From: a virus
Reading direction: 5' to 3' (one strand)
IMG/VR virus record: IMGVR_UViG_3300042540_001613
Span: 1 to 21,870 of that record
Length of the DNA: 21,870 nt
The position numbers were made by a program, and so were the translations under genes. The notes under the pieces are model-generated. The model did not search any database. It worked only from the letters and a program-made list of their open reading frames with translations, and was not told the DNA's origin. This document shows positions 363 through 20,414 of this stretch, one piece after another; the stretch's first letter is position 1, and the number at the start of each line of letters is the position of its first letter.

Positions 363-977
363 CTACAATATGCTTTCGATTGCTGCCTTGATTGTTAAAT
401 CACTTTCATTTATCAGCGATTCGTCGGCTAGGGGCCAATTTGTAAACCTAAACCTAAACATCAACTGACCATTCCTGCCAACTATGAACTTCTCGTAATT
501 ACTAGGTATGCGGGCTAGTGCTTCACCAGCCTTGTTCTGCCCGTTTGTGGCCCTGTCGCTGCTGTCAGCCGGATTATCGTCATTTCTTCTTGTCTGGTTG
601 CCTTTCAGAAATTTAAATATTTCATGTTCATTTTCACCATTGACATCAATTTTTTCAGATATTGGAAATGTGACGAATGGATATGCGGTCTTGATGAAGG
701 CGTGAATATCCTCGTTTGAGAGTGGTTCCATTTTGAAAAATTGATTGCATGGAAACCCAACAACAGAAAACCCTTTTTCTCCATACATCTCCTGCAGCTG
801 CTGGAGTTCCCATAATTGCCTTGTGGTTCTAGCCTGCGACCACAACTTGCTGCACTGGGGTGCGTAGCCGGCTTTTGAAGCAATATTGACGAATAAGCAC
901 ACTTTCCCGGACAACTCTGAGAGCATGTCGCTCCTGCCGTCAATAGACGAGATTTTTATGTCGAATACAGATGTCAT
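363..977 (-). CDS. Glutathione peroxidase-fold protein lacking the peroxidatic Cys
   Basis: A 204-residue protein of the glutathione peroxidase / BtuE thioredoxin-fold family. Family motifs are clear: FVNIASKAGYAPQ (29-41), VVGFPCNQF (72-80), FVTFPISEKIDVNGENEHEI and FKFLKG in the middle, and NYEKFIVGRNG near 160-170. Active family members have a Cys or selenocysteine where Ala36 stands here (codon GCC, so not a recoded stop) and a Trp where Ser159 stands; the Gln79 and Asn160 positions of the usual tetrad are kept. About 12 extra residues lie between positions 42 and 65 and about 20 before position 155. Cys42 and Cys77 remain. Normal members reduce peroxides with thiol donors; with these changes classic peroxidase activity is doubtful, and a redox-independent or Cys42-based role is possible. 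An AAAGG ribosome site precedes the ATG. It lies between oxygenase genes with 4-bp gaps. Confidence 0.8.
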   Translation of the reverse strand: MTSVFDIKISSIDGRSDMLSELSGKVCLFVNIASKAGYAPQCSKLWSQARTTRQLWELQQLQEMYGEKGFSVVGFPCNQFFKMEPLSNEDIHAFIKTAYPFVTFPISEKIDVNGENEHEIFKFLKGNQTRRNDDNPADSSDRATNGQNKAGEALARIPSNYEKFIVGRNGQLMFRFRFTNWPLADESLINESDLTIKAAIESIL

Positions 978-3752: not shown

Positions 3753-3965
3753 CTAGTTACCCAGTTTTTTGAAAGCTTTTACTTCAGCCGAAAGGACATT
3801 AAATGCATTGAAAAACGGGCTTGACTGGTCATGGGGATTTTCTGCCGTTTCGTCAAACGAGTCAATATCAACACCAAGCACGCCAGCTAGGACGGATATT
3901 GATTTACTCAAAAACGCACGAGCTTCTGCCTTTGCCCTTGCTTCGTCGAACGCGCCCAATTTCAT
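3753..3965 (-). CDS. Hypothetical small protein (70 aa)
   Basis: A 70-residue Ala-rich, probably helical protein (MKLGAFDEARAKAEARAFLS..., then ISVLAGVLGVDIDSFDE and a C-terminal helix ending EVKAFKKLGN). No membrane segment of full length and no family recognised. Its ATG overlaps the stop region of the DUF6065-like gene by 4 bp (ATGA type), so translation is probably coupled. Confidence 0.55.
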   Translation of the reverse strand: MKLGAFDEARAKAEARAFLSKSISVLAGVLGVDIDSFDETAENPHDQSSPFFNAFNVLSAEVKAFKKLGN

Positions 3966-4672
3966 TGTGTATCTCCCGGAGTTCTGAGTTTTGGCAGACC
4001 TGTAAATGCAGGACCAATCTTATTTCCTTCAGCGTCAATCCCTGTTCTAATGCCTTTAGTCCACGTCCATGGGTTGTCTTGCTGATTCTTCATTTTTACT
4101 CCGTTGTATAGCTGTCTGCTTTTTACTTTTTCTTTATCGTCCCATAGATTTCCAATTTCAAACTCCACATTCTCAAGAATTGAACTGTCAAACATAGTGA
4201 AAAACATAAACGGCATCCCGGCCTCAAACTTGACTGGCTCGTTAATTTTGTCCAGCGCCCAGTTCATCTGAAATTCGTCTGGCCACCAGCTACTAGGAAT
4301 GATTCCAGATAGCGGCTTGGCTCCATCCATCATGTAATTTGGTGAGCCACCAATCCATGTTTCATATCCAGGCTCTGTTCCAAATACCCAGCCCACAGAA
4401 AACGAAACCATGCCAACGATTCCACCGTAGGCAATACGTCGACCCCCATGCATCTCGCCTTCAAGTATTTTCGGGTAAGTATTCCCGCCCTCCCAAATCG
4501 CCACGACGTCATGTGGAAGAACAAGCTCCCACCCATATACGTTTGCGTACGTCATCGGCAAACACTGATAGGCGTGTTTGTTGTATGTATTATCCATCCA
4601 CTCCCGCTTAATGCGAGACTGTCTAATTTCTGGTGGATTTTGCGTTGTTTTAAGAAGACTGAACTTTGGCAT
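3962..4672 (-). CDS. DUF6065-like protein
   Basis: A 236-residue protein that I match from memory to the DUF6065 family of bacterial and phage proteins of unknown function. Matching features are an early EWMD followed by AYQCLPMTYANVYGWELVLP, the central WIGGSPNYMMDGAKPLSGII, and PDEFQMNWALDK with FEAGMPFMFFTMF. The start at 4672 (MPKFSLLKTTQ) is chosen because an ideal AGGAG lies 6 nt before the ATG; the frame extends to 4723, but that would lie inside the upstream oxygenase gene. It overlaps that gene's end by 23 bp. Members often neighbour oxygenase and modification genes in phages; role unknown. Trp-, Gly- and Tyr-rich composition suggests a compact beta-rich fold. Confidence 0.75.
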   Translation of the reverse strand: MPKFSLLKTTQNPPEIRQSRIKREWMDNTYNKHAYQCLPMTYANVYGWELVLPHDVVAIWEGGNTYPKILEGEMHGGRRIAYGGIVGMVSFSVGWVFGTEPGYETWIGGSPNYMMDGAKPLSGIIPSSWWPDEFQMNWALDKINEPVKFEAGMPFMFFTMFDSSILENVEFEIGNLWDDKEKVKSRQLYNGVKMKNQQDNPWTWTKGIRTGIDAEGNKIGPAFTGLPKLRTPGDTQ

Positions 4673-5312
4673 ACTGCTCCTGAACAGAAGACTTAACGTC
4701 ATGGTTTCTGTCGTTGTAGTCAAACATTGTCACGGCAGAGTATTTGGTTCCGCTTATTACAGGTTTTGCAGCATGAGCGAAAATGTATGTCGACGGGAAA
4801 AGAACTATGTCTCCTGCCTCAGCCTTAAAGGTGAGGTCTAGGTATGGGAACCATAACTCTCCGCCCTCATAATCATCGTTTAGATACATTACCGACGAGA
4901 CCGTGCACGTATAGGAAAACCCATGGTCTGCGTGCACCTGGAAGTGCTGTCCTGGTGTGTAGCGAACGTAATTGATTGCCTCCATGTACTGCATGTTTAG
5001 GTTGTAACGCATTTGGTAATCAGCCATGCACTCCATGAGGTGCTTTTTGGTATCCCCATGGATGTTGCGAATCTCCTCGAATTGTGAGGGAAGATGCTGG
5101 AGGTGCAGGTCGCCAATTTTGCAGTCGTGGCAGTCTCTGTATTCTGGCATTTTTTGGGCATAGCCAACCAGTGCCTCCATCCACATATATGGTGGCGTCT
5201 TGCTATTGCCGATTGTCTCCTCGAGACGCTCAATGATTCTGAGCTCTTTTGGTAAAGCGTTTCTATAAACTAATACGCCAAGGCGTGCATCACTTAGTGC
5301 TACTGGTGTCAT
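4650..5312 (-). CDS. Prolyl 4-hydroxylase-like 2OG-Fe(II) oxygenase
   Basis: A 220-residue protein with the prolyl 4-hydroxylase-type core: YTPGQHFQVHADHGFS (His127, Asp129), SSVMYLNDDYEGGELWFP (139-156), AEAGDIVLFPS (164-174), distal His180 in IFAHAAKPVISGTKYS, and Lys190 at the 2-oxoglutarate anchor position, where prolyl hydroxylases use Lys and many other members Arg. The N-terminal ~110 residues are the usual helical cap and include a CHDC pair (61-64). The likely reaction is hydroxylation of a peptide side chain, classically proline; the substrate here is unknown. The gene lies in a string of three oxygenases just downstream of the proline-repeat fibre gene. GAGG is very close to the ATG, so initiation may depend on coupling to the upstream gene 10 bp away. 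Confidence 0.88.
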   Translation of the reverse strand: MTPVALSDARLGVLVYRNALPKELRIIERLEETIGNSKTPPYMWMEALVGYAQKMPEYRDCHDCKIGDLHLQHLPSQFEEIRNIHGDTKKHLMECMADYQMRYNLNMQYMEAINYVRYTPGQHFQVHADHGFSYTCTVSSVMYLNDDYEGGELWFPYLDLTFKAEAGDIVLFPSTYIFAHAAKPVISGTKYSAVTMFDYNDRNHDVKSSVQEQYAKVQSS

Positions 5313-5322
5313 GCCTCAGAGT

Positions 5323-5982
5323 CTATACCGACCAGAAGAAGCCTTGCGACATAAACCTTGACCCAGATGTTATTGGTTTTACACCGTGAGCCATGTCTTC
5401 GTGCCAAACGTGAGACCATACGACAAGGCTATTGGCCTTGGGCTTTATGCTCAGACCAATTGCTGGAACATATAGTTCGCCGCCCTCGTAGTCATCATTT
5501 ATATAATAAACAGAAGAAAAGTCAGTCGACGCTCCTTCGGTGGCTAAAAACACTCCATCGCAATGGAGGGCCATGTAGTCCCCCTCGCTTGCCATTGATA
5601 ACCATGGACCACTTTCAAAATAAGTGTCATTTCCATAAATTGTTTTAATTACATCTCGTGATTTTATTAACATCCACAAAAGTATTTTATGGACATCTCC
5701 GTCAACTGGTTCATGCATCGATATTTTGTAATTGTCGCCATGTCTCGTCGCATTTTCGTTATTGCCATTCTCTGTTAAAAAAGACCTCTGATATTTAATT
5801 TCTGGGTCTGTTGAGTGGATGTGTTCTTGCCAGCCAACCTTGTCAGAATATCCAACAAACTGGAATCTCTCAGTGTTGCCCCTGCAGTACTCATCCACTT
5901 TTCGCCATTTATCATGCGGCAAAAAATCAGTAAAAACCGAGATACGTGGAGACACTTTATTTACTGGTTCAGAACCGTTCAT
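5323..5982 (-). CDS. 2OG-Fe(II) oxygenase (P4H-like)
   Basis: A 219-residue 2OG-Fe(II) oxygenase: MALHCDGVF gives His140 and Asp142, SSVYYINDDYEGGELYVP (156-173) is the hallmark strand pair, KPKANSLVVWS follows, and MAHGVKPITSGSRFMS gives distal His199 and Arg209. The ATG at 5982 overlaps the stop of the upstream oxygenase as ATGA. It shares the DDYEGGEL core with its two neighbours but their N-terminal caps differ greatly, so these are diverged paralogues probably acting on different sites rather than recent duplicates. Substrate not shown. Confidence 0.87.
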   Translation of the reverse strand: MNGSEPVNKVSPRISVFTDFLPHDKWRKVDEYCRGNTERFQFVGYSDKVGWQEHIHSTDPEIKYQRSFLTENGNNENATRHGDNYKISMHEPVDGDVHKILLWMLIKSRDVIKTIYGNDTYFESGPWLSMASEGDYMALHCDGVFLATEGASTDFSSVYYINDDYEGGELYVPAIGLSIKPKANSLVVWSHVWHEDMAHGVKPITSGSRFMSQGFFWSV

Positions 5983-6623
5983 TTATTGAAACTCTCTACG
6001 GTGTAAAAAGCGGGTGTAGTAAAACGCTCTCCTGAAATTATTGGCTTTACGCCATGCAAGTAATGAATGTCTCCAGGGTGAACTACAGCAAGTCCTGGCT
6101 TCGGCTTCACAACAATATCGTGCTGTGGGTAGTAGAGCTCACCACCCTCAAAGTCGTCATTCCAGTAAAACAGCGAATTTATGTCATATGTCGGAAACGG
6201 ATTTGGAGAACCGTCTGGCATCTGCTTATCAGCATGTGGACGCTGCTCTATTCCAGCGAACCACCTAATTATGCATGGTGGCCTATTTGAAACTCTGCAT
6301 TCGTACTTCAAATTAATGGTTTTTGCCATTTTGTTTATGTATTTATCTATGAGGGAATATATTTCTGGGCTTATCCGTTTTAAGATTTGACTTGAGCATT
6401 GGCGATTATTCCAGTAGGAAGCGTCGTATATGCAAACGCCGTTCTCATCGAACTCATCTTCCTCTTTGTCGTTTGCCCACTCGCTGATTGTCCTTGAGAA
6501 TGCAGAAACAGTGCGTACGTCATCGGCATCTATAAAGTCTTCAAATATATAGATATTTTCTGGACCAGTTCCGAAGTGCCCTGGAGCAACCTTCCACGGA
6601 GATTCAGCAACTACTTCTTCCAT
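5979..6623 (-). CDS. 2OG-Fe(II) oxygenase (P4H-like)
   Basis: A 214-residue 2OG-Fe(II) oxygenase: IEQRPHADKQMPDG gives His130 and Asp132, INSLFYWNDDFEGGELYYP (148-166) is the core strand pair, VKPKPGLAVVHPG follows, and YLHGVKPIISGERFTT gives distal His190 and Arg200. Residues 40-65 hold an acidic stretch (DKEEDEFDE). It is the first oxygenase downstream of the fibronectin/FFPP gene, 41 bp away on the same strand. The leader holds a 7-bp palindrome (6637-6654) ending 14 nt before the ATG and only a weak GGA ribosome site. Confidence 0.88.
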   Translation of the reverse strand: MEEVVAESPWKVAPGHFGTGPENIYIFEDFIDADDVRTVSAFSRTISEWANDKEEDEFDENGVCIYDASYWNNRQCSSQILKRISPEIYSLIDKYINKMAKTINLKYECRVSNRPPCIIRWFAGIEQRPHADKQMPDGSPNPFPTYDINSLFYWNDDFEGGELYYPQHDIVVKPKPGLAVVHPGDIHYLHGVKPIISGERFTTPAFYTVESFNK

Positions 6624-6636
6624 TTTTCCATTCTAA

Positions 6637-6654
6637 CCATATTTGGCAATATGG
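6637..6654. repeat. Short palindrome in the oxygenase leader
   Basis: CCATATT, a 4-base loop TGGC, then AATATGG: a perfect 7-bp inverted repeat in the 41-bp gap between the FN3/FFPP gene and the oxygenase gene. It is AT-rich and has no T-run after it in the transcribed (minus) direction, so a classic intrinsic terminator is not supported. It could be an mRNA processing site, a weak attenuator or chance. Confidence 0.35.
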
Positions 6655-6664
6655 CTATTTGTGA

Positions 6665-7114
6665 CTACTTAAAGAATGGTGGGAAGAACGGGGGAAAGAA
6701 CGGCGGGAAGAACGGCGGGAAGAATGGTGGGAAGAACGGGGGAAAGAACGGTGGGAAATACGGCGGGAAAAATGGCGGGAAGAACGGCGGGAAATACGGA
6801 GGGGCAACAGGTGTCACCGATGCGGTAGTTGCCCCAGGGCCACGAACACCACCACTAGTAATTGCGGTAATCGTGAAAGTGTATGCAGTTCCGTTGGTTA
6901 GTCCGGTAAATGTGTGTGGACTCGTTGCATTGGATACCGTAGTTGTCGACGGAGTAGAAACAATCTCATATGTAACGGTTCCTGTTTTTCCTCTATATGC
7001 AGGGGCTGTCCAAGTGATTACAGATTGAGCATTGGCACCAGTTGTTGCCGACTGGCCAGTCGGCGCGCCGGGCTGCTTGCCGCCCGAATCATTGGATTGA
7101 TTTGATGCTGTCAT
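6665..7114 (-). CDS. Fibronectin type III protein with (F/Y)FPP repeat tail
   Basis: A 149-residue, probably virion-associated protein. Residues ~15-104 form one fibronectin type III domain (QPGAPTGQSATTGANAQSV, ITWTAPAY, TYEIVS, FTGLTNGTAYTFTITAITSGG). Residues 107-149 are ten tandem four-residue units, YFPP or FFPP, ending in FFK, with nothing after. The gene starts 3 bp after the stop of the long fibre, as in the paralogous pair at 10223-10792. Fn3 domains in phage tails usually bind glycans or act as spacers; the aromatic-proline tail would be a stiff, very hydrophobic stalk or tip. Unlike its paralogue it has no Cys-rich end domain, so it may be a shortened or slippage-altered version. 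Copy number could vary because the DNA unit is 12 bp. Confidence 0.8.
   Translation of the reverse strand: MTASNQSNDSGGKQPGAPTGQSATTGANAQSVITWTAPAYRGKTGTVTYEIVSTPSTTTVSNATSPHTFTGLTNGTAYTFTITAITSGGVRGPGATTASVTPVAPPYFPPFFPPFFPPYFPPFFPPFFPPFFPPFFPPFFPPFFPPFFK
6668..6796 (-). repeat. 12-bp tandem repeat encoding (F/Y)FPP
   Basis: On the plus strand the unit reads roughly GGGAAGAACGGC with small variants (AAC, AAT or TAC; GGC, GGT, GGG or GGA). There are about ten and a half consecutive units in frame with the FN3 protein. Third-base variation is present, but most units differ by only one to three bases, so recent expansion or slippage is likely. Confidence 0.9.
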
Positions 7115-7117
7115 GGC

Positions 7118-9853
7118 TTACGCTGCTATATCTCCGACCAACACCCACGTGTCGGTTCCTCTCTTGATGAGCGTAGCATACGACCATTGAGCGCGAAGCT
7201 TGAGTCCTGGGGTTCCGTTAATCGTTACGCCGCCAGTCGCAACTACCGTCGTCTGACCAGCTCCTGTCTGCAGTATGTTGATTTGCGTTCCTGTCGGGAA
7301 TGCGACCGAGCTGTTTAGTGGGACTGTCAAGTTATTTGCGGAACCCACGTTCATTTCAACAATCTTGTTTCTGTCAGTAAGGACAAGGGTGTAGCTGGCT
7401 GTCTGGGCGTTTGTAGCAGGGTCTGCAAGCTTCTGGAGGTCGATTCCAGCAGTCGACGAGATGTCCGCATTGGCAATAGTTCCATCAAGAATCATTGCAC
7501 TTGTTACAGTGCCGGTTGGGAGAGTGACTGTTCCGGTGAATGTTGGGCTATTCAGTGGCGCATAGGAAGAGCCATGCTGACCGTCGAGAAGGTCCGCATT
7601 GAGGTTCGTCACTACAGTGCTTGAAGAAACGCTTAGCGGAGCAGTTCCAGTCGAAACCGTGCTGGCAAGCGTATTTGCAGAGAAGTCTGCAGCAGCATAC
7701 GAAGCGTGGCTCGTGTTGATTGGGTGCTCTGGCTCAGGAACGTAGTTTTTAAACACCTTGAATACGCCATCAGTTGCATCTCGGAAGAATCCAGCGTGGC
7801 GATATGTGCCGTCGTTGTAGTTTCCTGCCCAACCAAGGTCTGGGTTAGCAACTGAGCTGCTGTTGTTCAGGTAGATGAACGTGTCATCAACAGCGAGGTT
7901 ATTGACATTAAGAATCGTCTCCTCGCCTTGAACAGTGAGGTTTCCACCTATGACGATGTCGCCAGTTGTTTCGACTCTAGCGAATACAACTGAAGAAGAT
8001 GTCGCTACGGCTTGTCCGATTGCGATTGTCGGCGATGAACCTTCACCTGGAGTATGTGTAACGGTAACGCCGGTTCCAGCGGTTACATCATTGACATAGT
8101 TTCCAGTTGTGTCGGTTCCGAGGGCTACCGAGTTAGCAGCAATTGTTGCTGAAATCTGAACATTTGCGCTTCCATCGAACGTGGTTGAGCCAGTCACATC
8201 ACCTGTTAGCTCTATCGTTCTGGCATTAGTAAGTGAACCAGCGGTTCCGCTTGTATTGCCTGTTACGTTTCCGGTGAGGTTACCAGTTACGTTTCCTGTT
8301 ACGTTTCCAGTGAGATTGCCGGTTACGTTTCCGGTTACATTTCCAGTTACCGGACCAGCGAACTCATTTGCAGCGACTCTTGCAAACTGAACCGATGAAG
8401 ATGTTCCAACTTCCTGCGGAATCGCAATCGTTGGAGTCGCCCCCTCGCCAGTGTTGTTTGTAATTGTTACGCCAGTTCCAGCAACAAGGCTCTCGACGTA
8501 ATTTCCAGTTGTTTGGGTTCCAAGAACAACCGTTGTGCTAGCCGATGTAACTCCAGTAACGCGGCCATAACCATCGCGCGTAACGCCAGAAATAAAGACC
8601 GAAGTTGGGTTTTCTGCAGTTGAATCACTTTGTGAAATTGCTCCCAAATCCAAAAGGTTTGCGCTCACTGTCAAGCCCGAACCAGGAACAATGTTGATTG
8701 AGTTTCCTGATGCCACAAGGCCGTTGCCGGCTTGAATGGTTGCAGTTCCGCTTATCTGTTCGAATGTAATTGAGTCGGTGCCGAATACTATTTGGCCACT
8801 TGAGCCACTGCCGTCATTGGATACGCCGAACATCTGAAGACCATTTGCGAATCCACCAGCAGCATACATAACATCGCCGAATGCAACCTGGCGCGTATAT
8901 GTTCCATTGAAATCCGTAGCACGCGTTAGCACCCAGTACTCAGATGGTCCACCTTGTGCGGTTACGGTATAAACACCATTGTGAACGGCATTAGATTGAT
9001 TCTTTACAAGAATTCTATTGCCAACATTTGCTTCACCTTGGTCTACTACAAGTCGACCATACGTCGTTGCTGTAAGTGTTGCGCCGACACCAGTTCCATC
9101 TGCCCCAGCAGAACCAGCTGCGTATGATGGAGAGTTTGGAAGGACTGCATCAGTTGCGAGTCGAACTGGCTGGTGCCACGTATCCATGGCATTGCTATTT
9201 TCTACGTCAAGGACTCTTGCCAGAGTGTAGTAGTTGGTGCCATCTGTTGTGATTTCCCAAACATCGTTTGATTCGTTCCAACGAAGCTGAACGTTTGCGG
9301 ATGTTCCACGTTCGATTTCAATTCCAGCGTTTGCTGTTGGCGAGCCGGTTTCGTCGCTGTTAAGGACAATAATATTGTCAGCAATAGTTACTGTTTCTGT
9401 GTTGACAGTCGTTGTTGTTCCACTAACGGTTAGGTTGCCGGTTACAACAAGATTGTCATCGACTGTCGTTGTTCCTGATGCTGAGTCAATAGTTAGACCA
9501 CCAGATGTAGTATCGATTTCTCCTGCTGCGGTAACTCCGATTCGAACAGCGTCAATTTCTGCGCCAGTGAAAGATGCTGTCGCAGATGAGTCATTAACCC
9601 ATGCGCTACCGTTCCAACGCAAAAATTGGCCAGAAGCAAAGCTTCCGTAAGTAACGTCGTCGAGCTGGTTCAAGGTGGCATTTTCAAGAGAGCCGTAGAA
9701 GTAGGTCAGGCTGGTCCATGCGGTCGAGCCATCACCAATCTTTATCTTGTCTGTATCGGTTTCAAGGCCGACCTCACCATTGGAAAGGATTGGGTTCTCG
9801 GAAGTCCAGTTTGCGGCCGAATCTCTACGGAAAAGTATCTTTTTATAGGACAT
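7118..9853 (-). CDS. Long tail fibre with Mtd-like N-terminal domain
   Basis: A 911-residue phage fibre. Residues 1-55 match the N-terminal attachment domain of major tropism determinant-like fibres (LFRRDSAANWTSENPILSNG, then GEVGLETDTDKIKIGDGSTAW). After that come mosaic fibre modules: NLTVSGTTTTVNTETVTIAD with NAGIEIERGTS (about 138-217), a RILVKNQSNAVHNGVYTV module (about 265-370), TGN(V/L) four-residue repeats (about 501-533), one copy of the TTGNYV/VTHTPGEGSS repeat shared with the 1808-residue fibre, a NYNDGTYRHAGFFRD module (about 630-705), and a ~100-residue C-terminal domain (NAQTASYTLVLTDRNKIVEMN to the end) homologous to the end of that fibre. Likely a trimeric host-recognition fibre. 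The ATG overlaps the upstream small gene's stop as TAATG; a GGAGG 9 nt before serves as ribosome site. Confidence 0.88.
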   Translation of the reverse strand: MSYKKILFRRDSAANWTSENPILSNGEVGLETDTDKIKIGDGSTAWTSLTYFYGSLENATLNQLDDVTYGSFASGQFLRWNGSAWVNDSSATASFTGAEIDAVRIGVTAAGEIDTTSGGLTIDSASGTTTVDDNLVVTGNLTVSGTTTTVNTETVTIADNIIVLNSDETGSPTANAGIEIERGTSANVQLRWNESNDVWEITTDGTNYYTLARVLDVENSNAMDTWHQPVRLATDAVLPNSPSYAAGSAGADGTGVGATLTATTYGRLVVDQGEANVGNRILVKNQSNAVHNGVYTVTAQGGPSEYWVLTRATDFNGTYTRQVAFGDVMYAAGGFANGLQMFGVSNDGSGSSGQIVFGTDSITFEQISGTATIQAGNGLVASGNSINIVPGSGLTVSANLLDLGAISQSDSTAENPTSVFISGVTRDGYGRVTGVTSASTTVVLGTQTTGNYVESLVAGTGVTITNNTGEGATPTIAIPQEVGTSSSVQFARVAANEFAGPVTGNVTGNVTGNLTGNVTGNVTGNLTGNVTGNTSGTAGSLTNARTIELTGDVTGSTTFDGSANVQISATIAANSVALGTDTTGNYVNDVTAGTGVTVTHTPGEGSSPTIAIGQAVATSSSVVFARVETTGDIVIGGNLTVQGEETILNVNNLAVDDTFIYLNNSSSVANPDLGWAGNYNDGTYRHAGFFRDATDGVFKVFKNYVPEPEHPINTSHASYAAADFSANTLASTVSTGTAPLSVSSSTVVTNLNADLLDGQHGSSYAPLNSPTFTGTVTLPTGTVTSAMILDGTIANADISSTAGIDLQKLADPATNAQTASYTLVLTDRNKIVEMNVGSANNLTVPLNSSVAFPTGTQINILQTGAGQTTVVATGGVTINGTPGLKLRAQWSYATLIKRGTDTWVLVGDIAA
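8252..8353 (-). repeat. TGN(V/L) 12-bp tandem repeat in the fibre
   Basis: About eight in-frame 12-bp units encode TGNV or TGNL runs within the 911-residue fibre. Units are similar but not identical at third positions. In phage fibres such runs commonly form collagen-like or beta-helical shaft segments; the length could change by recombination between units. Confidence 0.8.
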
Positions 9854-10222: not shown

Positions 10223-10792
10223 CTAGCAAGGGCTCGGATAATAACCAGCACAACCAGGTCCTGAGCAATCAGATATAAGAACGGAGCCACAACTCACACA
10301 ACCAGCAGGACTTGATGAATATGACTGATAAACCTGTCTACAGCTAAGGCTTCCGCTATTGCAGCACGAGACCGAGAACGTGCCGCCAGCGACACACGAT
10401 GCTCCAGCGCATGGGTCAAAGTGTGGCGGGAAGAATGGCGGGAAGTACGGCGGGAAGTACGGCGGAAAGTAGGGCGGGAAGTACGGTGGTGCAACTGGGG
10501 CGACACCACTAGATGATGCCGACGCTACAGAGTTAACGCCATACGAAGTATTTGCTGTAACAGTAAATGTATATGTTGTCCCATTTGTTAGCCCAGTTAC
10601 GGTAATAGGAGAGGACGAACCGCTTGCTGTTATACCACCAGGGCTTGATGTAACCGTATACGTTATTGTTGCTCGCCCTGTATATGCAGGAGCTGAAAAT
10701 GAAACAGTTGCCTGTCCATTACCGGCAGTGGCAGATACACCAGTAACTTGACCAGGCAATTTCCCAGTAGCGGCACTAACACCACGAATCAT
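10223..10792 (-). CDS. Fibronectin type III protein with YFPP stalk and Cys-rich tip
   Basis: A 189-residue paralogue of the 6665-7114 product. Residues ~11-98 are a fibronectin III domain (LPGQVTGVSATAGNGQATVS, APAYTG, TVTGLTNGTTYTFTVTANTS). Residues 104-123 are four YFPP units and one FFPP, then HFDP. The last ~62 residues hold ten cysteines (CAGASC, CC, CVSC, CSGPGC and a final C), Gly/Ser rich, probably a disulfide-bonded or metal-binding tip. The start at 10792 is chosen because ATG overlaps the stop of the giant fibre as ATGA; the frame extends to 10822 and the longer form (199 residues) cannot be excluded. Position directly after a giant fibre suggests a fibre-tip or accessory adhesin. 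Confidence 0.8.
   Translation of the reverse strand: MIRGVSAATGKLPGQVTGVSATAGNGQATVSFSAPAYTGRATITYTVTSSPGGITASGSSSPITVTGLTNGTTYTFTVTANTSYGVNSVASASSSGVAPVAPPYFPPYFPPYFPPYFPPFFPPHFDPCAGASCVAGGTFSVSCCNSGSLSCRQVYQSYSSSPAGCVSCGSVLISDCSGPGCAGYYPSPC
10412..10483 (-). repeat. 12-bp tandem repeat encoding YFPP
   Basis: Five to six consecutive 12-bp units, on the plus strand about GGGAAGTACGGC, in frame in the Cys-rich FN3 protein. It is the same repeat type as at 6668-6796 but shorter and richer in Tyr. Confidence 0.85.
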
Positions 10793-13700
10793 GTTGCGCT
10801 CAAGTCGCCGAACAAAATCCATTCATCTGTAGCCCTATTGATTAGAGTGGCAACAGAATATTGAGCTCTTAGATAATTTCCTGGCGTTGAACGTATGGTC
10901 ACTCCGCTTCCAGCAAGAATTTGGGTTTTTCCTCCCCCGTATTGGTATACGGTTATTTCTGCTCCAACAGGGAAAGCTACGCTTGAGTTTGGTGGAACAG
11001 TGAGCGTATTTGCTGAACCAATATTCATTTCGATTACCGTTCGTTTATCAGCAAGGGCAAGCGTGTAGTTGTTTGACTTGGAACTAATTGCTGCATCAGA
11101 AATACTTATTGTTGCAGTCGAGCCTTCTGACGGAGTGTGGGAAACAGTTATCCCGGTTCCAGCAGATACATCTGCCATATAATTTCCGGTCGTATCTGTT
11201 CCAAGAGCGACAGAGTTGGCTTGGATTGTTGCTGATATTGTTGCATCTGCAGAGCCATTGAACGATACAGAGCCAGTTACATCTCCAGATAGAGATATTG
11301 TTCTTGATGTCTGCAATGTTGTTGCCGTGTCGGCATTGCCGGTTACGTTTCCAATTACCGGTGCGGTTACTGCTGCAAACTGAACACTTGATGATGTTCC
11401 AACATTTTGACCAATTGAAATTGTGGCTGTAGATGCCTCTCCTGGAGTGTGAGAAACAGTTACACCAGTACCCGAGGATACATCGGCCATGTAGTTCCCA
11501 ACGGTATCTGTTCCAAGTGTTATGCCTCCGAGGGTTGCGATTGCTCCATACGATGAACCATCATTAGTAATTTCCCATTTGTCGCTAGACTCGTTCCATC
11601 TAAGAACGACATTTGTAGAGCTACCGCGCTCAATTTCTATTCCAGCATTTGTTGAAGGCGCACCAGATGTATTGCTATTAAGAACAATAATATTGTCCTC
11701 AACTTCAAGCGTCTCCGTGTTTATGGTCGTTGTAGTTCCATTAACAGTAAGATTTCCACCAATTACTGCATCACCGGTAGTAGTTACTTTTCCAAATGTA
11801 ACTGAAGCGCTAGTCCCAATATCCTGACCAATTGCCACTGTTGGTGATGAGCCCTCACCTGGAGTGTGTGTAACTGTAACACCGGTACCAGCGGTCAGAT
11901 TGGAAACATAGTTCCCAGTAGTGTCAGTACCAAGAGCTACTGAATTAGGCTGCACTGTTGTTGAGATGGTAACGTTTTGTGAACCATCAAACGAAACCGA
12001 ACCAGAGACATCACCAGACAGACTGATTACGCGAGACGCAAGCAATGCATTAGCAACGGATGCAGTTGTTACAACTGAAACATTTACCCAGTCCGTTCCG
12101 TCGTATTGCAACAAGTCTCCTGGAAGTGCATTAAGCACAGACACATCGACAAGGTCACTAAGTTCAGCAATCTCCGAAGGAGGTGTGTTCTGTTGCAACC
12201 ATGTCCCGTCGTAATAAACGAAAGTATCGAAGCTGGACGAATCAAACCAAAGGTCACCCTCTGAAGGAGAACCTGGTGCCGTATCAGAAACAGTAATTGC
12301 ACTAGAACCAAGTGACGCAGACACCCAGTTGGTTCCATTGAATGTTAAATAATCTCCGTTTACAGGGCTTGCCACAAGCACGTTACTAAGGTCGTCGAGC
12401 GTCGCATTTAGCGATACAGATGCGCTTGAACCTTCGCCTGGTGTATGTGAAACGCTAATTCCAGTTCCAGCAGTTACATCAGATACATAATTGCCAGTTG
12501 TATCGGTTCCTAGTGCAACCGAGTTCGGCTGCACTGTTGTGGATATTGATACATCCGAAGAACCGTTGAACGATACAGAACCCGATACGTCTCCAGTTAT
12601 GGAAATTGTTCTTGCCGTCTGCAGTGTTGACGCAGTTCCAGCATTGCCAGATACATCTCCGGTCACATTTCCGATTACATTTCCAGTGACTGGAGCAGAA
12701 ACATGGGCAAATGTAACTGACGATGATGTTGCAACAGCCTGACCAATTGCAACAGTTGGGCTCGAACCCTCTCCCGGCGTATGGGTGACCGTTACACCAG
12801 TGCCAGCGGTGATGTCGTTTACATAGTTACCAGTCGTATCCGTTCCAAGTGCAACTGAGTTCGGTTGCACCGCTGTTGAAATGTTTACGTTTGCGCTTCC
12901 GTCAAAGTAAACCGAACCAGAAACATCACCAGACAATTCAATGATTCTTGCGTTGTCGAGCTGTGTAGCCGTTGTTGCGTTTCCGCTCAGGTCGGCAGTA
13001 ATTGTTCCGGCAGAGAAGTTTCCATTCTCATCGCGCTTAACTATGGCCGAAGCTGAATTCGAATCCGTGGCGTTGCTTCCTATGAATATCGTTGCGCTTT
13101 CGCCAGGACTGGAAACATTTAGACCAGAGCCAGGAAATGCGGATATTTCAGCTACGTAATTACCTGTCGTGTCTGTCCCAAGAGCAACAGAATTTGGCTG
13201 AATTGTCGCTGTAATGTCGACATTTGACGAGCCATTGAAGGAAACAGAACCGCTTAGGTCTCCGCTGAGGCTAATTGTTCTAGCAGTTTGTAGCGTTGAA
13301 GCAGTTGATGCATTTCCAGTCACATTCCCCGTTAGTGGTGCAGAAACGTGCGCGAAAGTGACAGAGGCAGACGTGGCGACGTCTTGACCGATACTTACTT
13401 GCGGGCTGGTTCCTTCTCCTGGGGTGTGAACGATGTTTACACCAGTTCCGCCAGTTACATCGGCAACATAATTTCCAGTGGTTTGAGTTCCAAGAGCAAC
13501 TGTGTTGTTCGGAAGAGACACTGTTCCAGTGAATGTTGGACTGTCAATTGGGGCAAAGTATGACGAGTCGTATCCATCGAGTTTGTCAGCATTAAGATTT
13601 GTTACTGCTGTCGATGAAGAAACACTAAACGGAGCGGTTCCTGTAGGAATTGTTGATATAAAGCGTTCAGCCTGAAGTGGGGCATCACTGTATGAAGGGT

Positions 13701-16215
13701 CAGAAACGTTAATCGGATTTTGTGGTTCAGGTTCATAGTTGTCGAATATCTTGAAGATTCCGTCACTTGAGTCTCTAAAGAAACCAGCATGCCTGTACGT
13801 TCCATCGTTGTAATTGGCAGCAATACCGAAGTCTGGGTTAACGCTTGCGCTTGTCGCATTTAAGTAGATAAACGAATCTTCAATTTCAAGATTTGTTTCA
13901 TTTATTCTTGTAATTGTTCCTTGGACATCTAAGTCACCTTGAACAGTTACTTGCGCAAATGTGACAGAAGCAGAAGTTGATACGTCTTGACCAATCGATA
14001 TAGTTGGAGTTGAACCTTCACTTGCGATGTGGTTTACAGTTACACCGGTTCCGCCAGAAACATCTGAAACATAGTTTCCTATTGTGTCTGTTCCAAGATT
14101 TATCGCATCATTAACCCAAATAGTCGAGGCACTGTTGTAGCGCAAGAATTGGCCATCAGAAGGGCTGATAATTTTTACATCGTGTAGTTCTTCTAGTTCA
14201 TATCCGTTTTGGGCAGACACAAACATAATTCCATTATTTGTCGCACGAACCACAACACCAACAAACACCATATGGTCTGGTGCGGATGGCTTGGTAGTCG
14301 TGAGCGCGCCATTCTTTGCTAGCCAAAGAATGTCACCGACGTTATACCCAGTGCTGAAGTCAATCTGGTCAACATAACCCTGTGTTACAACTGGGCCGTT
14401 TTGATTAACAGGGATAGCAACACCAACAACACCAAGAGTTTTTGCTGAAGTCGTATCTGACGAGTTATCTGCACGTTTTACAGTTACGTGGTCGCCATTA
14501 CCGCCATAGATATAAACAACAGTTCCTGGTTGAAGTGTTACGGTATCAACGTTTCGAGCATACGAAACTGTGTCTGGCCACTCATTGACCCACTCTGTTC
14601 CGTTGTATTGAATAACCTGGTATTCCTCTGGATTTGTGATGTTTACGCCATCAAGCTCGCCAATAGCAACACTCGAAGTGTTTACAGTCGTAAAGATATT
14701 GATACTTGAGGTTCCATCAAAGGATGCAGAACCAGATACGTCACCACTGAGTTCAATAGTTCTGGCAGTTGCAAGCGCAGTTGCTGTATCTGCGTTTCCT
14801 GTCAAATCACCGGTTACATCTGCAGTTACGTGTGCAAACGTTACGCTCGAAGATATTCCAACTGCTTGTCCGATGGCAATAGTTGGGCTTGAGCCTTCAC
14901 CAGGTGTGTGGGTTACCGTAACACCAGTTCCAGCAGTTACATCATTAACGTAGTTTCCAGTTGTGTCAGTTCCGAGAGCAACGCTATTTGGCTGAATTGT
15001 TGCGTTAATCGTTGCGTTGGCAGAACCATCAAATGATACTGAACCAGAAACATCGCCATTAATTGCAATAGTTCTCGCTGTTTGTAATGCGGAAGCAGTT
15101 GATGCATTACCGGTTACATCGCCAGTCAATGGAGCAGAAACGTGGGCAAAGGTTACTGAAGAAGATGTTCCTACAGCCTGACCAATAGCGATTGTTGGGC
15201 TTGAGCCCTCAGCAGGAGTGTGCGTGACAGTGACGCCAGTACCCGCAGTCACATCGTTTACATAGTTGCCAGTCGTGTCTGTTCCAAGAGCAACAGAATT
15301 TGGTTGGATAGTTGCAGATATTGTTACATCAGCCGAACCATCAAAAGAGACCGAACCAGAAACATCACCAGAAATAGCAATTGTCCTCGATGTCTCAAGC
15401 GTTGAGGCTGTATCTGCGTTGCCGGTTAGGTCTCCAATAACATTTCCTGTTACTGGGGCAGAAACGTGCGCAAATGTTACAGATGACGATGTGCCTACTG
15501 CTTGACCAATTGCAATCGTTGGTGAAGAACCTTCGCCTGGTGTATGAGTTACCGTAATACCTGTACCAGCGGTTACGTCGTTGACATAATTACCTGTCGT
15601 ATCAGTGCCGAGTGCAACACTATTTGGTTGGACAACAGCAGTTATTGAAACATCACTTGAGCCATTAAAAGAAACAGAACCTGACACGTCTCCAGTTAAA
15701 GAGATGGTTCTTGCTGTTTGGAGCGTTGATGCAGTCCCAGCGTTCCCAGAAACATCTCCTGTTACGTTGCCAATTACATTTCCGGTCAATGGTGCATTTA
15801 CATGCGCGAATGTAACTGACGAGGATGTTCCAACCGCTTGACCAATTGCAATGGTTGGAGTAGAGCCTTCTCCAGAATTATTTGCAAGACTTACACCAGT
15901 GCCAGCAACAAGACTTTGAACATAGTCGCCAACGGTGTCTGTAGATAGGTTTACTGGGTCGTTAATCCATGCTGAGGCAGAACTGCTGTAGCGGAGAAAA
16001 TCACCATTTTGTGGGTCTGTGATTGTTACGCCATCAAGTTCGTCGATGTCAATTGAAAAATTGGTGTACGACAAAGAGTTCCAAGCAGTTACGCCATCAC
16101 CAAGTTTGACCTGATTGGTGTCAAGATTTAAGCCAAGCTCACCTTGTGCGAGTACAGGGTTGACACTTTGCCAGTTAGCCGCTGTATCTCTACGAAGTTG
16201 TATTCTTGTTGCCAT
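10789..16215 (-). CDS. Giant repetitive tail fibre (1808 aa) with Mtd-like N-terminus
   Basis: A 1808-residue fibre. Residues 1-52 are the Mtd-like attachment domain (MATRIQLRRDTAANWQ, GELGLNLDTNQVKLGDGVTA). Most of the rest is about nine units of ~95-110 residues containing QPNSVALGTDTTGNYV (seven exact copies), VTHTPGEGSSP, IAIGQAVGTSSSVTFAHV, LTGNV and ISLSGDVSGSVSFNG. Interruptions: a VVYIYGGNGDHVTVKRA...SAQNGYELEELHDV module (about 552-678), a NYNDGTYRHAGFFRD module (about 758-835), a NLTVNGTTTTINTETLEVED/NAGIEIERGSS module (about 1478-1562), and a C-terminal domain (about 1713-1808) homologous to the end of the 911-residue fibre. It is probably a long, thin, trimeric receptor-binding fibre. 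A TAATG overlap and GGAGGAG site couple it to the upstream gene. Confidence 0.9.
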   Translation of the reverse strand: MATRIQLRRDTAANWQSVNPVLAQGELGLNLDTNQVKLGDGVTAWNSLSYTNFSIDIDELDGVTITDPQNGDFLRYSSSASAWINDPVNLSTDTVGDYVQSLVAGTGVSLANNSGEGSTPTIAIGQAVGTSSSVTFAHVNAPLTGNVIGNVTGDVSGNAGTASTLQTARTISLTGDVSGSVSFNGSSDVSITAVVQPNSVALGTDTTGNYVNDVTAGTGITVTHTPGEGSSPTIAIGQAVGTSSSVTFAHVSAPVTGNVIGDLTGNADTASTLETSRTIAISGDVSGSVSFDGSADVTISATIQPNSVALGTDTTGNYVNDVTAGTGVTVTHTPAEGSSPTIAIGQAVGTSSSVTFAHVSAPLTGDVTGNASTASALQTARTIAINGDVSGSVSFDGSANATINATIQPNSVALGTDTTGNYVNDVTAGTGVTVTHTPGEGSSPTIAIGQAVGISSSVTFAHVTADVTGDLTGNADTATALATARTIELSGDVSGSASFDGTSSINIFTTVNTSSVAIGELDGVNITNPEEYQVIQYNGTEWVNEWPDTVSYARNVDTVTLQPGTVVYIYGGNGDHVTVKRADNSSDTTSAKTLGVVGVAIPVNQNGPVVTQGYVDQIDFSTGYNVGDILWLAKNGALTTTKPSAPDHMVFVGVVVRATNNGIMFVSAQNGYELEELHDVKIISPSDGQFLRYNSASTIWVNDAINLGTDTIGNYVSDVSGGTGVTVNHIASEGSTPTISIGQDVSTSASVTFAQVTVQGDLDVQGTITRINETNLEIEDSFIYLNATSASVNPDFGIAANYNDGTYRHAGFFRDSSDGIFKIFDNYEPEPQNPINVSDPSYSDAPLQAERFISTIPTGTAPFSVSSSTAVTNLNADKLDGYDSSYFAPIDSPTFTGTVSLPNNTVALGTQTTGNYVADVTGGTGVNIVHTPGEGTSPQVSIGQDVATSASVTFAHVSAPLTGNVTGNASTASTLQTARTISLSGDLSGSVSFNGSSNVDITATIQPNSVALGTDTTGNYVAEISAFPGSGLNVSSPGESATIFIGSNATDSNSASAIVKRDENGNFSAGTITADLSGNATTATQLDNARIIELSGDVSGSVYFDGSANVNISTAVQPNSVALGTDTTGNYVNDITAGTGVTVTHTPGEGSSPTVAIGQAVATSSSVTFAHVSAPVTGNVIGNVTGDVSGNAGTASTLQTARTISITGDVSGSVSFNGSSDVSISTTVQPNSVALGTDTTGNYVSDVTAGTGISVSHTPGEGSSASVSLNATLDDLSNVLVASPVNGDYLTFNGTNWVSASLGSSAITVSDTAPGSPSEGDLWFDSSSFDTFVYYDGTWLQQNTPPSEIAELSDLVDVSVLNALPGDLLQYDGTDWVNVSVVTTASVANALLASRVISLSGDVSGSVSFDGSQNVTISTTVQPNSVALGTDTTGNYVSNLTAGTGVTVTHTPGEGSSPTVAIGQDIGTSASVTFGKVTTTGDAVIGGNLTVNGTTTTINTETLEVEDNIIVLNSNTSGAPSTNAGIEIERGSSTNVVLRWNESSDKWEITNDGSSYGAIATLGGITLGTDTVGNYMADVSSGTGVTVSHTPGEASTATISIGQNVGTSSSVQFAAVTAPVIGNVTGNADTATTLQTSRTISLSGDVTGSVSFNGSADATISATIQANSVALGTDTTGNYMADVSAGTGITVSHTPSEGSTATISISDAAISSKSNNYTLALADKRTVIEMNIGSANTLTVPPNSSVAFPVGAEITVYQYGGGKTQILAGSGVTIRSTPGNYLRAQYSVATLINRATDEWILFGDLSAT
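11100..15900 (-). repeat. ~95-110-residue repeats of the giant fibre
   Basis: About nine direct repeats of roughly 300-330 bp within the giant fibre, interrupted by unrelated modules. Protein identity between units is very high while DNA identity is much lower because synonymous codons differ: for example CAG CCT AAT TCA GTA GCT at 11935-11952 against CAA CCA AAT AGT GTT GCA at 15613-15630 for the same six residues. Confidence 0.88.
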
Positions 16216-19235: not shown

Positions 19236-19253
19236 GATTCGCTCCCTTTGTCT

Positions 19254-19294
19254 ATGCGACAAATAAATTTTATCATATTTAGAAATTGTCGCAT
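19254..19294. promoter_or_regulatory. Inverted repeat in the divergent intergenic region
   Basis: ATGCGACAA at 19254-19262 and TTGTCGCAT at 19286-19294 form a perfect 9-bp inverted repeat around a 23-bp AT-rich centre, between the holin (minus) and the glycosyltransferase (plus). On the minus strand TATGAT inside the centre could be a -10 box, though a -35 is not clear. Candidate operator or divergent promoter region. Confidence 0.4.
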
Positions 19295-19313
19295 TGTGCT
19301 AGTGTCGCTGAGC

Positions 19314-20414
19314 GTGGTAGCAAAGAAACGTAAACCGACAATTGGATATCTAACTGGAGATTGGGCATGGGGTACCGAGCCACTTCAGCCAAACGGTTGC
19401 GCTTGGTATAGGTGTAAATTACCTGCGGATGAGCTTAATAAGCGTGGATGGTTTGCAACTGTTGGATTTCCCGGCTTTAACCCACAGCGTGGATTCGGAA
19501 TGGTTGTCCCAGAGGATAGGGCTATTCATGGCTGGGACATCATAGTTTTTAAACTCTTAATGCAAAAAGAGGTTCTCGAGGCAATGCCAGCTGCTCAAGA
19601 GATGGGGCAAAAAATAGTCGTTGATGTAGACGATTGGTTTGATGGCTTGCATGTAAATAATCGAGCATACGAATCAACCGACCCTAAGAAAAATCCAAAT
19701 AATAATCGCGAGATTTATTCTCAGATAATTATGCAGGCTAATGCGGTTATCACGTCAACCCCGTTTCTCTTTGATTACTACGCAGCAAAGCGTGACAATG
19801 TGTTTTTGGTACGCAATGGCATAGATATCCAAAGATGGAAGCCAAGGCAAATCAAAATGAATCACAGGCTAAAAGTTGGCTGGGTGGGAGCAACGCCGTG
19901 GAGGTCTGGCGACCTAGAAACGCTTTCTAGTTTTATGGGCCAGTATCTAACTTCTCGAAAGATGGGGTTTCATCACTCTGGCCACACCGAGGGGGCGGGT
20001 GCACATAGGGCGAATCGACTTCTTGGAATACCAGACAACATAACAAGAATGTCCCCACTCGTTCCGATTATGTCTTATCCACGCTTGTTTGAATATTTTG
20101 ATATTGGCATGATTCCGCTAAATAATGTTCCATTTAATCACGCAAAGTCTTTTATAAAAGGTCTTGAGTATGCCGCAGCTGGAATACCATTTATTAGTTC
20201 ATTTTCTCCAGAATACAAATATCTTGCAGATAATGGAGTAGGTCGAGTTGCGTATACACCGGATGAGTGGGTTTATCACCTAGATGAACTTCGTGACCTA
20301 CAAACAAGAAAAGATGAAATTGAAGAAAATTATGAACGTCTAGCTGATTTCACTATGGACAAGCGCGGTGACGACTGGGACGCAACAATGCGTATCATTC
20401 TAGAAAAGATTTGA
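19314..20414 (+). CDS. Glycosyltransferase, GT-B fold (GT4-like)
   Basis: A 366-residue GT-B glycosyltransferase. N-terminal domain: PTIGYLTGDWAW, NGCAWYRCKLPADELNKRGW, GWDIIVFKLL and KIVVDVDDWFDGL (about 100-112). The inter-domain part ends VITSTPFLFDYY...VRNGIDIQRWKP. C-terminal domain starts LKVGWVGATPWRSGD (about 187-200) and holds the donor-site region IPLNNVPFNHAKSFIKGLEY with AAAGIPFISS (about 267-296). It probably moves a sugar from a nucleotide donor to a surface glycan, virion protein or DNA base; the acceptor is unknown. The start is uncertain: GTG at 19314 precedes the conserved part closely, with other in-frame GTG, ATG and TTG codons back to 19248, none with a strong ribosome site. 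First gene of the rightward block. Confidence 0.82.
   Translation: MVAKKRKPTIGYLTGDWAWGTEPLQPNGCAWYRCKLPADELNKRGWFATVGFPGFNPQRGFGMVVPEDRAIHGWDIIVFKLLMQKEVLEAMPAAQEMGQKIVVDVDDWFDGLHVNNRAYESTDPKKNPNNNREIYSQIIMQANAVITSTPFLFDYYAAKRDNVFLVRNGIDIQRWKPRQIKMNHRLKVGWVGATPWRSGDLETLSSFMGQYLTSRKMGFHHSGHTEGAGAHRANRLLGIPDNITRMSPLVPIMSYPRLFEYFDIGMIPLNNVPFNHAKSFIKGLEYAAAGIPFISSFSPEYKYLADNGVGRVAYTPDEWVYHLDELRDLQTRKDEIEENYERLADFTMDKRGDDWDATMRIILEKI

Follow-up and report, generated by a model that had tools for sequence, protein, structure and literature searches.

The window analyzed here is the whole of a 21,870-base IMG/VR viral record (IMGVR_UViG_3300042540_001613), a contig that is probably a genome fragment, and its minus strand carries a tail-fiber operon followed by a run of oxygenase genes. 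Read along that strand, it encodes a 1808-aa tail fiber-like protein with an Mtd_N N-terminus (10789-16215), an FN3 protein (10223-10822; fn3 3e-7, F/P-rich window) that has five (Y/F)FPP units, is Cys-rich at its C-terminus, and is a possible second substrate for the enzymes discussed below, a 911-aa tail fiber-like protein with an Mtd_N N-terminus (7118-9853; Mtd_N 7e-14, with matches to phage structural and tail families), and, just downstream of the latter, the FN3-(F/Y)FPP protein that is the proposed substrate (6665-7114; 149 aa, Pfam fn3 E 2e-9). Three P4H-like 2OG-Fe(II) oxygenase genes follow at 5979-6623 (the best candidate enzyme), 5323-5982, and 4650-5312; the first lies 41 bp from the FN3-FFPP gene, the first and second overlap by 4 bp, and the second and third are 10 bp apart. 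Beyond them are genes for a DUF6065 protein (3962-4636; 2e-43), a further 2OG-Fe(II) oxygenase-like protein with an HVD motif (1880-2551; PF13640 5.5e-5, below the cut-off), a 2OG-Fe(II) oxygenase-like protein of another family, PF13759 (982-1887; 2.3e-8, phrog_81 1.6e-22), and a glutathione peroxidase-like protein (363-977; GSHPx 8e-30). The preliminary description of this DNA, which placed an FN3 protein with ten (F/Y)FPP units 41 bp upstream of such oxygenases on the same strand, was right in both coordinates and description.

The product of 6665-7114 ends in APP-(YFPP)(FFPP)2(YFPP)(FFPP)6-FFK, exactly ten units, and within the tandem array of its gene (6671-6803) these units are written with 7 different 12-base spellings, indicating that the peptide repeat has been kept despite codon drift. 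Read directly, the repeat lacks Gly-X-Y triplets and is not a collagen system. The protein's fn3 domain and the two Mtd_N tail fiber-like proteins encoded upstream place it in a tail context, and some relatives end in Peptidase_S74. At least 120 viral stretches match a degenerate DNA pattern encoding three FPP units, and the proteins behind these matches carry (F/Y/H/W)FPP arrays, usually C-terminal after FN3 domains; other arrays follow short non-FN3 N-termini (..TIDYS.., ..YTKYS..) or precede Hint/intein-like or Peptidase_S74 domains. The usual position of the repeats, C-terminal or directly before Hint/S74 domains, suggests an element of the tail tip, not the stalk envisaged in the preliminary description. 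Applied to the genomes of 84,980 prokaryote species (257 Gb), the same pattern returns 18 stretches, mostly with no tandem protein repeat, and FFPP as a common cellular motif is therefore rejected. Real arrays occur in only four of these cellular contigs, three of which also carry a class A or class C oxygenase (relatives of 5979-6623 and 4650-5312, respectively) and resemble phage contigs that were binned into MAGs.

The description of three successive P4H-like oxygenases with intact HxD...H triads, one with a Lys anchor, is borne out by motifs and by PF13640 and phrog_61. Two of the enzymes exceed the curated cut-off of Pfam 2OG-FeII_Oxy_3 (PF13640; 4650-5312, 4e-12, 47.4 bits; 5323-5982, 2e-10, 41.8 bits); 5979-6623 falls slightly below the cut-off of 27 (4e-5, 24.8 bits), with phrog_61 and the fold in agreement. 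Matches to the phrog_61 2OG-Fe(II) oxygenases are 9e-29 (4650-5312), 2e-14 (5323-5982), and 3e-16 (5979-6623). The iron triad is intact in all three, the active sites reading H127-x-D129...H180...K190 in 4650-5312 (class C, HADHG...K+10), H130-x-D132...H190...R200 in 5979-6623 (class A, HADK...R+10), and HCD...H...R in 5323-5982 (R+10). The anchor residue ten positions after the distal His is the P4H-type Lys (C-P4H/Cr-P4H type) in 4650-5312 and Arg in the other two, which are for this reason named P4H-like, not P4H. These residues are invariant among relatives: H130, D132, H190, and R200 in 37 of 37 class-A sequences (alignment A3), and H127, D129, H180, and K190 in 44 of 44 class-C sequences (alignment A4). 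AlphaFold2 models built from aligned relatives have mean pLDDT values of 93.4 (5979-6623) and 89.3 (4650-5312), and the top fold matches of both are prolyl hydroxylases at Z 17-21. The best PDB matches of the 4650-5312 model are P. putida P4H, PHD2, PBCV-1 vCPH, and Chlamydomonas P4H (Z up to 20.7), and those of the 5979-6623 model are vCPH, PHD2, and collagen P3H1 (Z ~17.7, rmsd 2.3-2.8 over 159-176 residues). With sequence profiles of the oxygenases, B. anthracis P4H ranks first in the PDB. The nearest characterized relatives by profile and predicted fold are thus dominated by prolyl hydroxylases. PiuC and the lysyl hydroxylase LH3 are also among the fold matches, making the likeness to prolyl hydroxylases non-exclusive, and because the double-stranded beta-helix fold is common to lysyl hydroxylases, PiuC, and others, the fold does not fix the substrate.

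A search for co-occurrence, as called for in the preliminary description, finds PF13640 in 48 of the first 50 other FFPP viral records of at least 16 kb, commonly in 5-11 copies per record, versus one of 44 viral records of the same minimum length picked by means of an arbitrary 15-mer (Fisher p 3.6e-23). Two fragments (G006 and G009) contain FFPP and have no PF13640 match; the analysis sought, but did not find, a preponderance of FFPP repeats in phages that lack oxygenases. Gene order is equally marked. For 44 dereplicated FFPP genes with 1.5 kb or more of sequence to either side, an oxygenase lies within 1.5 kb downstream in 29 and upstream in one, and a same-strand oxygenase starting no more than 133 bp past the FFPP stop codon is seen in 34 cases; in the window, the FN3-FFPP gene and the adjoining oxygenase genes, all on the same strand, are probably co-transcribed. 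The upstream neighbors of FFPP genes are mostly tail proteins, so that FFPP marks the end of the tail operon. A DUF6065-related cluster recurs in 39 FFPP loci, always downstream, and a glutathione peroxidase family recurs downstream in 15 loci, suggesting a larger cassette. No glycosyltransferase was recognized among the families recurring beside FFPP genes, which leaves the earlier idea that the modified residues serve as sugar attachment sites unsupported. The glycosyltransferases once described as nearby hold up poorly: the sole supported one in the window, a putative gene at 19248-20414 (phrog_7162; PDB sequence search without a match), lies 12 kb from the FFPP gene on the opposite strand.

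The association also appears when the enzymes are the starting point. Class A and class C relatives were collected regardless of repeats, and the count was restricted to loci flanked by 3 kb or more in each direction. An F/P-rich repeat ORF is present in 34/36 class-A loci (17/18 dereplicated) and 41/47 class-C loci (34/40 dereplicated), and no comparable ORF occurs in 80 random viral loci (0.74 Mb), so the repeat in the window is not a product of chance. Among loci below the strict threshold, two contain a shorter array (L275/L276), four have PPYFPPSFCPPC, PPPFPPPF, or (AFFSPP)n genes just upstream (L320, L322, L346, L350), one has FFPP elsewhere in the record (L317), and one has no F/P-rich partner in view (L330). 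In many class-A loci, the enzyme is convergent to a non-FN3 FFPP gene, and overall the pairing recurs with both FN3-type and non-FN3 FFPP proteins, in both co-directional and convergent order, and with oxygenase classes that are mutually only ~20-30% identical. The pairing thus persists through changes of scaffold, orientation, and sequence. The type of repeat also tracks the class of enzyme: tandem FFPP is found 15 times with classes A/B and 4 times with class C, and FPFFPP mixtures 0 and 19 times, respectively (p 5e-7). Shared descent in one uncultured lineage could lie behind part of both the co-occurrence and this class-repeat correlation.

The interpretation preferred here, to which a probability of roughly 0.6 is assigned, is a virion-modification cassette in which the oxygenases hydroxylate prolines of the adjoining FN3-(F/Y)FPP protein and the modified repeats sit at the exposed end of the fiber. 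Genome context strongly supports the link between enzyme and substrate without proving it, and from gene content and order these phages probably modify their own tail tips chemically. The earlier proposal that the phage modifies its own FFPP stalks therefore survives as to modification, favored by the association, the downstream adjacency, the recurrence with non-homologous partners, the tracking of class, and the folds, and not as to the stalk. We infer the repeats as the substrate, the task of each enzyme, the order of action, and the effect on the virion as follows. The FN3-(F/Y)FPP protein would be an accessory protein of the tail fiber or tip, produced from the last gene of the tail operon. 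Its extended aromatic-Pro-Pro repeats would be bound in the cytoplasm by the neighboring oxygenases, first of all the one immediately downstream. With Fe(II), O2, and 2-oxoglutarate, these enzymes would convert prolines to 4- and/or 3-Hyp during or after translation and ahead of tail assembly; the modified residue is presumably Pro, not Phe or Tyr. The modified repeats would then form the exposed fiber end and may tune conformation or host adhesion. Speculatively, the several oxygenases per locus could reflect a division of labor (e.g., first versus second Pro, 3- versus 4-position, or repeat variants). Observations that count against the cassette include the presence of 5-11 oxygenases in many loci, which looks like more than a single repeat would require, and the Arg in place of the P4H-typical Lys in two of the three enzymes. 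Even odds are given to the more far-reaching proposition of a dedicated protein proline-hydroxylation system in bacterial viruses, in which phage-confined aromatic-Pro-Pro repeats co-evolve with several P4H-like enzymes to yield a modified, possibly multiply hydroxylated and adhesive, tail tip.

The most durable alternative, which is considered unlikely, has the oxygenases working on something other than FFPP, be it host glycans, lipids, small molecules, nucleotides, or host proteins; the FFPP gene would simply close the tail operon, with a metabolic or host-recognition island rich in oxygenases following it by chance. The genes upstream of FFPP do code mostly for tail proteins, which puts FFPP at the end of their operon, and as many as 11 oxygenases can trail a single FFPP gene. 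Moreover, PF13640 genes are present in 13/13 named phage records, mostly T4-like cyanophages, at 1-10 each, many of them amid replication or metabolic genes, and a pattern search finds FFPP in none of these 13 records. A wealth of oxygenases in a phage thus does not generally entail FFPP, and the enzyme family has other substrates or uses as well. Named phages were likewise rejected as carriers of the FFPP-oxygenase pair after tblastn with the FN3-FFPP protein returned none; the pattern search is the better test in this case, since the BLAST low-complexity filter may mask repeats. Against other targets as the whole explanation, members of the class A and C clades nearly always have an F/P-rich partner, unlike the oxygenases of FFPP-free phages, and the link survives changes in FFPP scaffold, orientation, and enzyme class, with repeat type following class.

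A second alternative, judged distinctly improbable, accepts the FFPP protein as the substrate and places the modification at Phe or Tyr (e.g., beta-hydroxylation) or at residues of the FN3 or neighboring fiber proteins instead of Pro. The aromatic pair is conserved as much as Pro-Pro across the variants FFPP, FPFFPP, and xFFxPP, and class A has Arg in place of the P4H Lys, both of which are in keeping with such a site. The closest characterized relatives by profile and fold are nonetheless mainly prolyl hydroxylases, and we know of no established reaction in which a double-stranded beta-helix enzyme hydroxylates a peptidyl Phe side chain.

The phages that carry the pairing are a widespread group of uncultured aquatic phages. 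A T4-like (Kyanoviridae) cyanophage origin is rejected, as the gp23 major capsid protein (PF07068) was found in 0/58 FFPP-linked records (up to 210 kb, many of them fragments) and was recovered from three cyanophage isolates used as a positive control. One 206-kb FFPP record has genes for terminase, portal, contractile sheath, and baseplate proteins, its sheath having only remote similarity to cultured phages. The absence of gp23 and the remoteness of this contractile-tailed example mean that FFPP phages may be one broad lineage, yet the least credible alternative, that unmodified FFPP serves as a membrane-active element or as a tip that is rigid or hydrophobic and is linked to oxygenases through shared descent in one such lineage, has against it the repeated pairing of non-homologous FFPP proteins with different enzyme classes and leaves the next-gene position of the oxygenase unexplained amid strong sequence divergence.

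If the cassette does hydroxylate the repeats, part of the abundant and puzzling 'P4HA' genes of aquatic viromes would be explained, supposed metabolic genes would become virion-maturation enzymes, phage host recognition would gain an oxygen- and iron-dependent modification, and new Pro-modifying enzymes for a non-collagen repeat would be at hand. A specific candidate substrate is, in any case, now named for one large class of viral P4HA-type genes. In agreement with the preliminary description, which knew of no such system, a literature search (with subscription journals and preprints mostly outside its scope) found no paper on FFPP repeats, phage virion proline hydroxylation, or a link between phage P4H-like enzymes and FFPP. 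To our knowledge, a phage proline-hydroxylation system would be the first in bacterial viruses. A study of the Baltic virome ranks P4HA with the most abundant auxiliary genes of viruses and states that its viral use 'remains cryptic' (PMC9301287), and the phage phrog_61-type proteins are described in the Phold paper as resembling EGLN3, with no substrate given (PMC12774648).

Several known systems resemble parts of the proposed one. The T4-like cyanophage phrog_61 oxygenases belong to the same broad family and occur in several copies per genome, but they lack FFPP in 13/13 records and often sit amid replication or metabolic genes; for cyanophage 2OG oxygenases, DNA repair or 2OG balance have been proposed (PMC3037559). 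The collagen-like tail protein of E. coli prophage EPcl is likewise a repetitive Pro-containing phage tail element, but is built on a Gly-X-Y repeat, and the prolyl hydroxylase it would require is said there to be missing from bacteria and viruses (PMC3368898). Bacterial P4Hs (B. anthracis 3itq and 5hv0; P. putida 4iw3) share HxD...H and are the best sequence match in the PDB for the oxygenase profiles, with 4iw3 among the top fold matches of class C, but they are cellular enzymes with no FFPP substrate, the P. putida structure having been solved with EF-Tu. The nearest precedent is the PBCV-1 P4H, vCPH (5c5t), a virus-encoded P4H-fold enzyme that is the top or near-top structural match of both modeled enzymes, but it comes from a virus of a eukaryotic alga and shares ~16-20% identity with the enzymes of the window. 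Its peptide substrates are collagen-like and PAPK-type, not FFPP, and we know of no gene-order pairing of vCPH with an FFPP protein. The title of Eriksson et al. 1999 (cited in PMC9301287) ties vCPH to 4-hydroxyproline in viral proteins. As regards the substrate, Chlamydomonas P4H-1 (2jig; 3gze with (Ser-Pro)5) is an algal enzyme acting on Ser-Pro and not FFPP, but it matches class C at Z 19.8 and acts on extended, non-collagen, Pro-rich repeats, and by analogy its substrate is the closest counterpart of the FFPP substrate proposed here.

DUF6065 proteins, encoded in the window (3962-4636) and at 39 loci with (F/Y)FPP-repeat (FFPP) genes, are found downstream of the FFPP gene and on the same strand in every case. 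A glutathione peroxidase-like gene (window 363-977 and 15 FFPP loci) belongs to the same downstream cassette, and a second recurrent, unnamed family (IPDWYRKADRF...; e.g., 6221-6961 of the collected viral locus L059) occurs at 28 FFPP loci. Directly 3' of the oxygenase at eight loci (L036:3164-3931 and seven others) is a gene whose product carries HIPRTSGKG.. near its N-terminus, a motif that by eye resembles a sulfotransferase P-loop; a Pfam profile search of this protein gave no match, and it is a candidate only.

The C-termini of some FFPP proteins are weak matches to Hint/intein-like domains, scoring below the Pfam cut-offs (L090:4048-5253, L044:6071-7393, L088:3040-5559, and L076:2140-3861). 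Since their final residues resemble intein C-termini (e.g., ..LIHNK), putative self-processing immediately C-terminal to the repeats is suggested. The Cys-rich tail of a second FN3 protein with YFPP units (window 10223-10822), together with comparable Cys-bearing repeat variants at L361 (CPFFPNFCPSF), hints at possible disulfide or metal chemistry close to the repeats. Among the 50 FFPP records searched, PF13640 was absent only from the fragments G006 and G009, where the FFPP arrays are internal, between FN3-like domains (L013:4421-7174 and L016); this subfamily may represent a variant without oxygenases.

In cyanophages, 2OG oxygenases are labeled "DNA endonuclease" or "ferrochelatase" (NC_021530.1 36109-36585 and NC_023587.1 42547-43059; phrog_2297 and phrog_3531), names that appear to be inherited from misnamed families.
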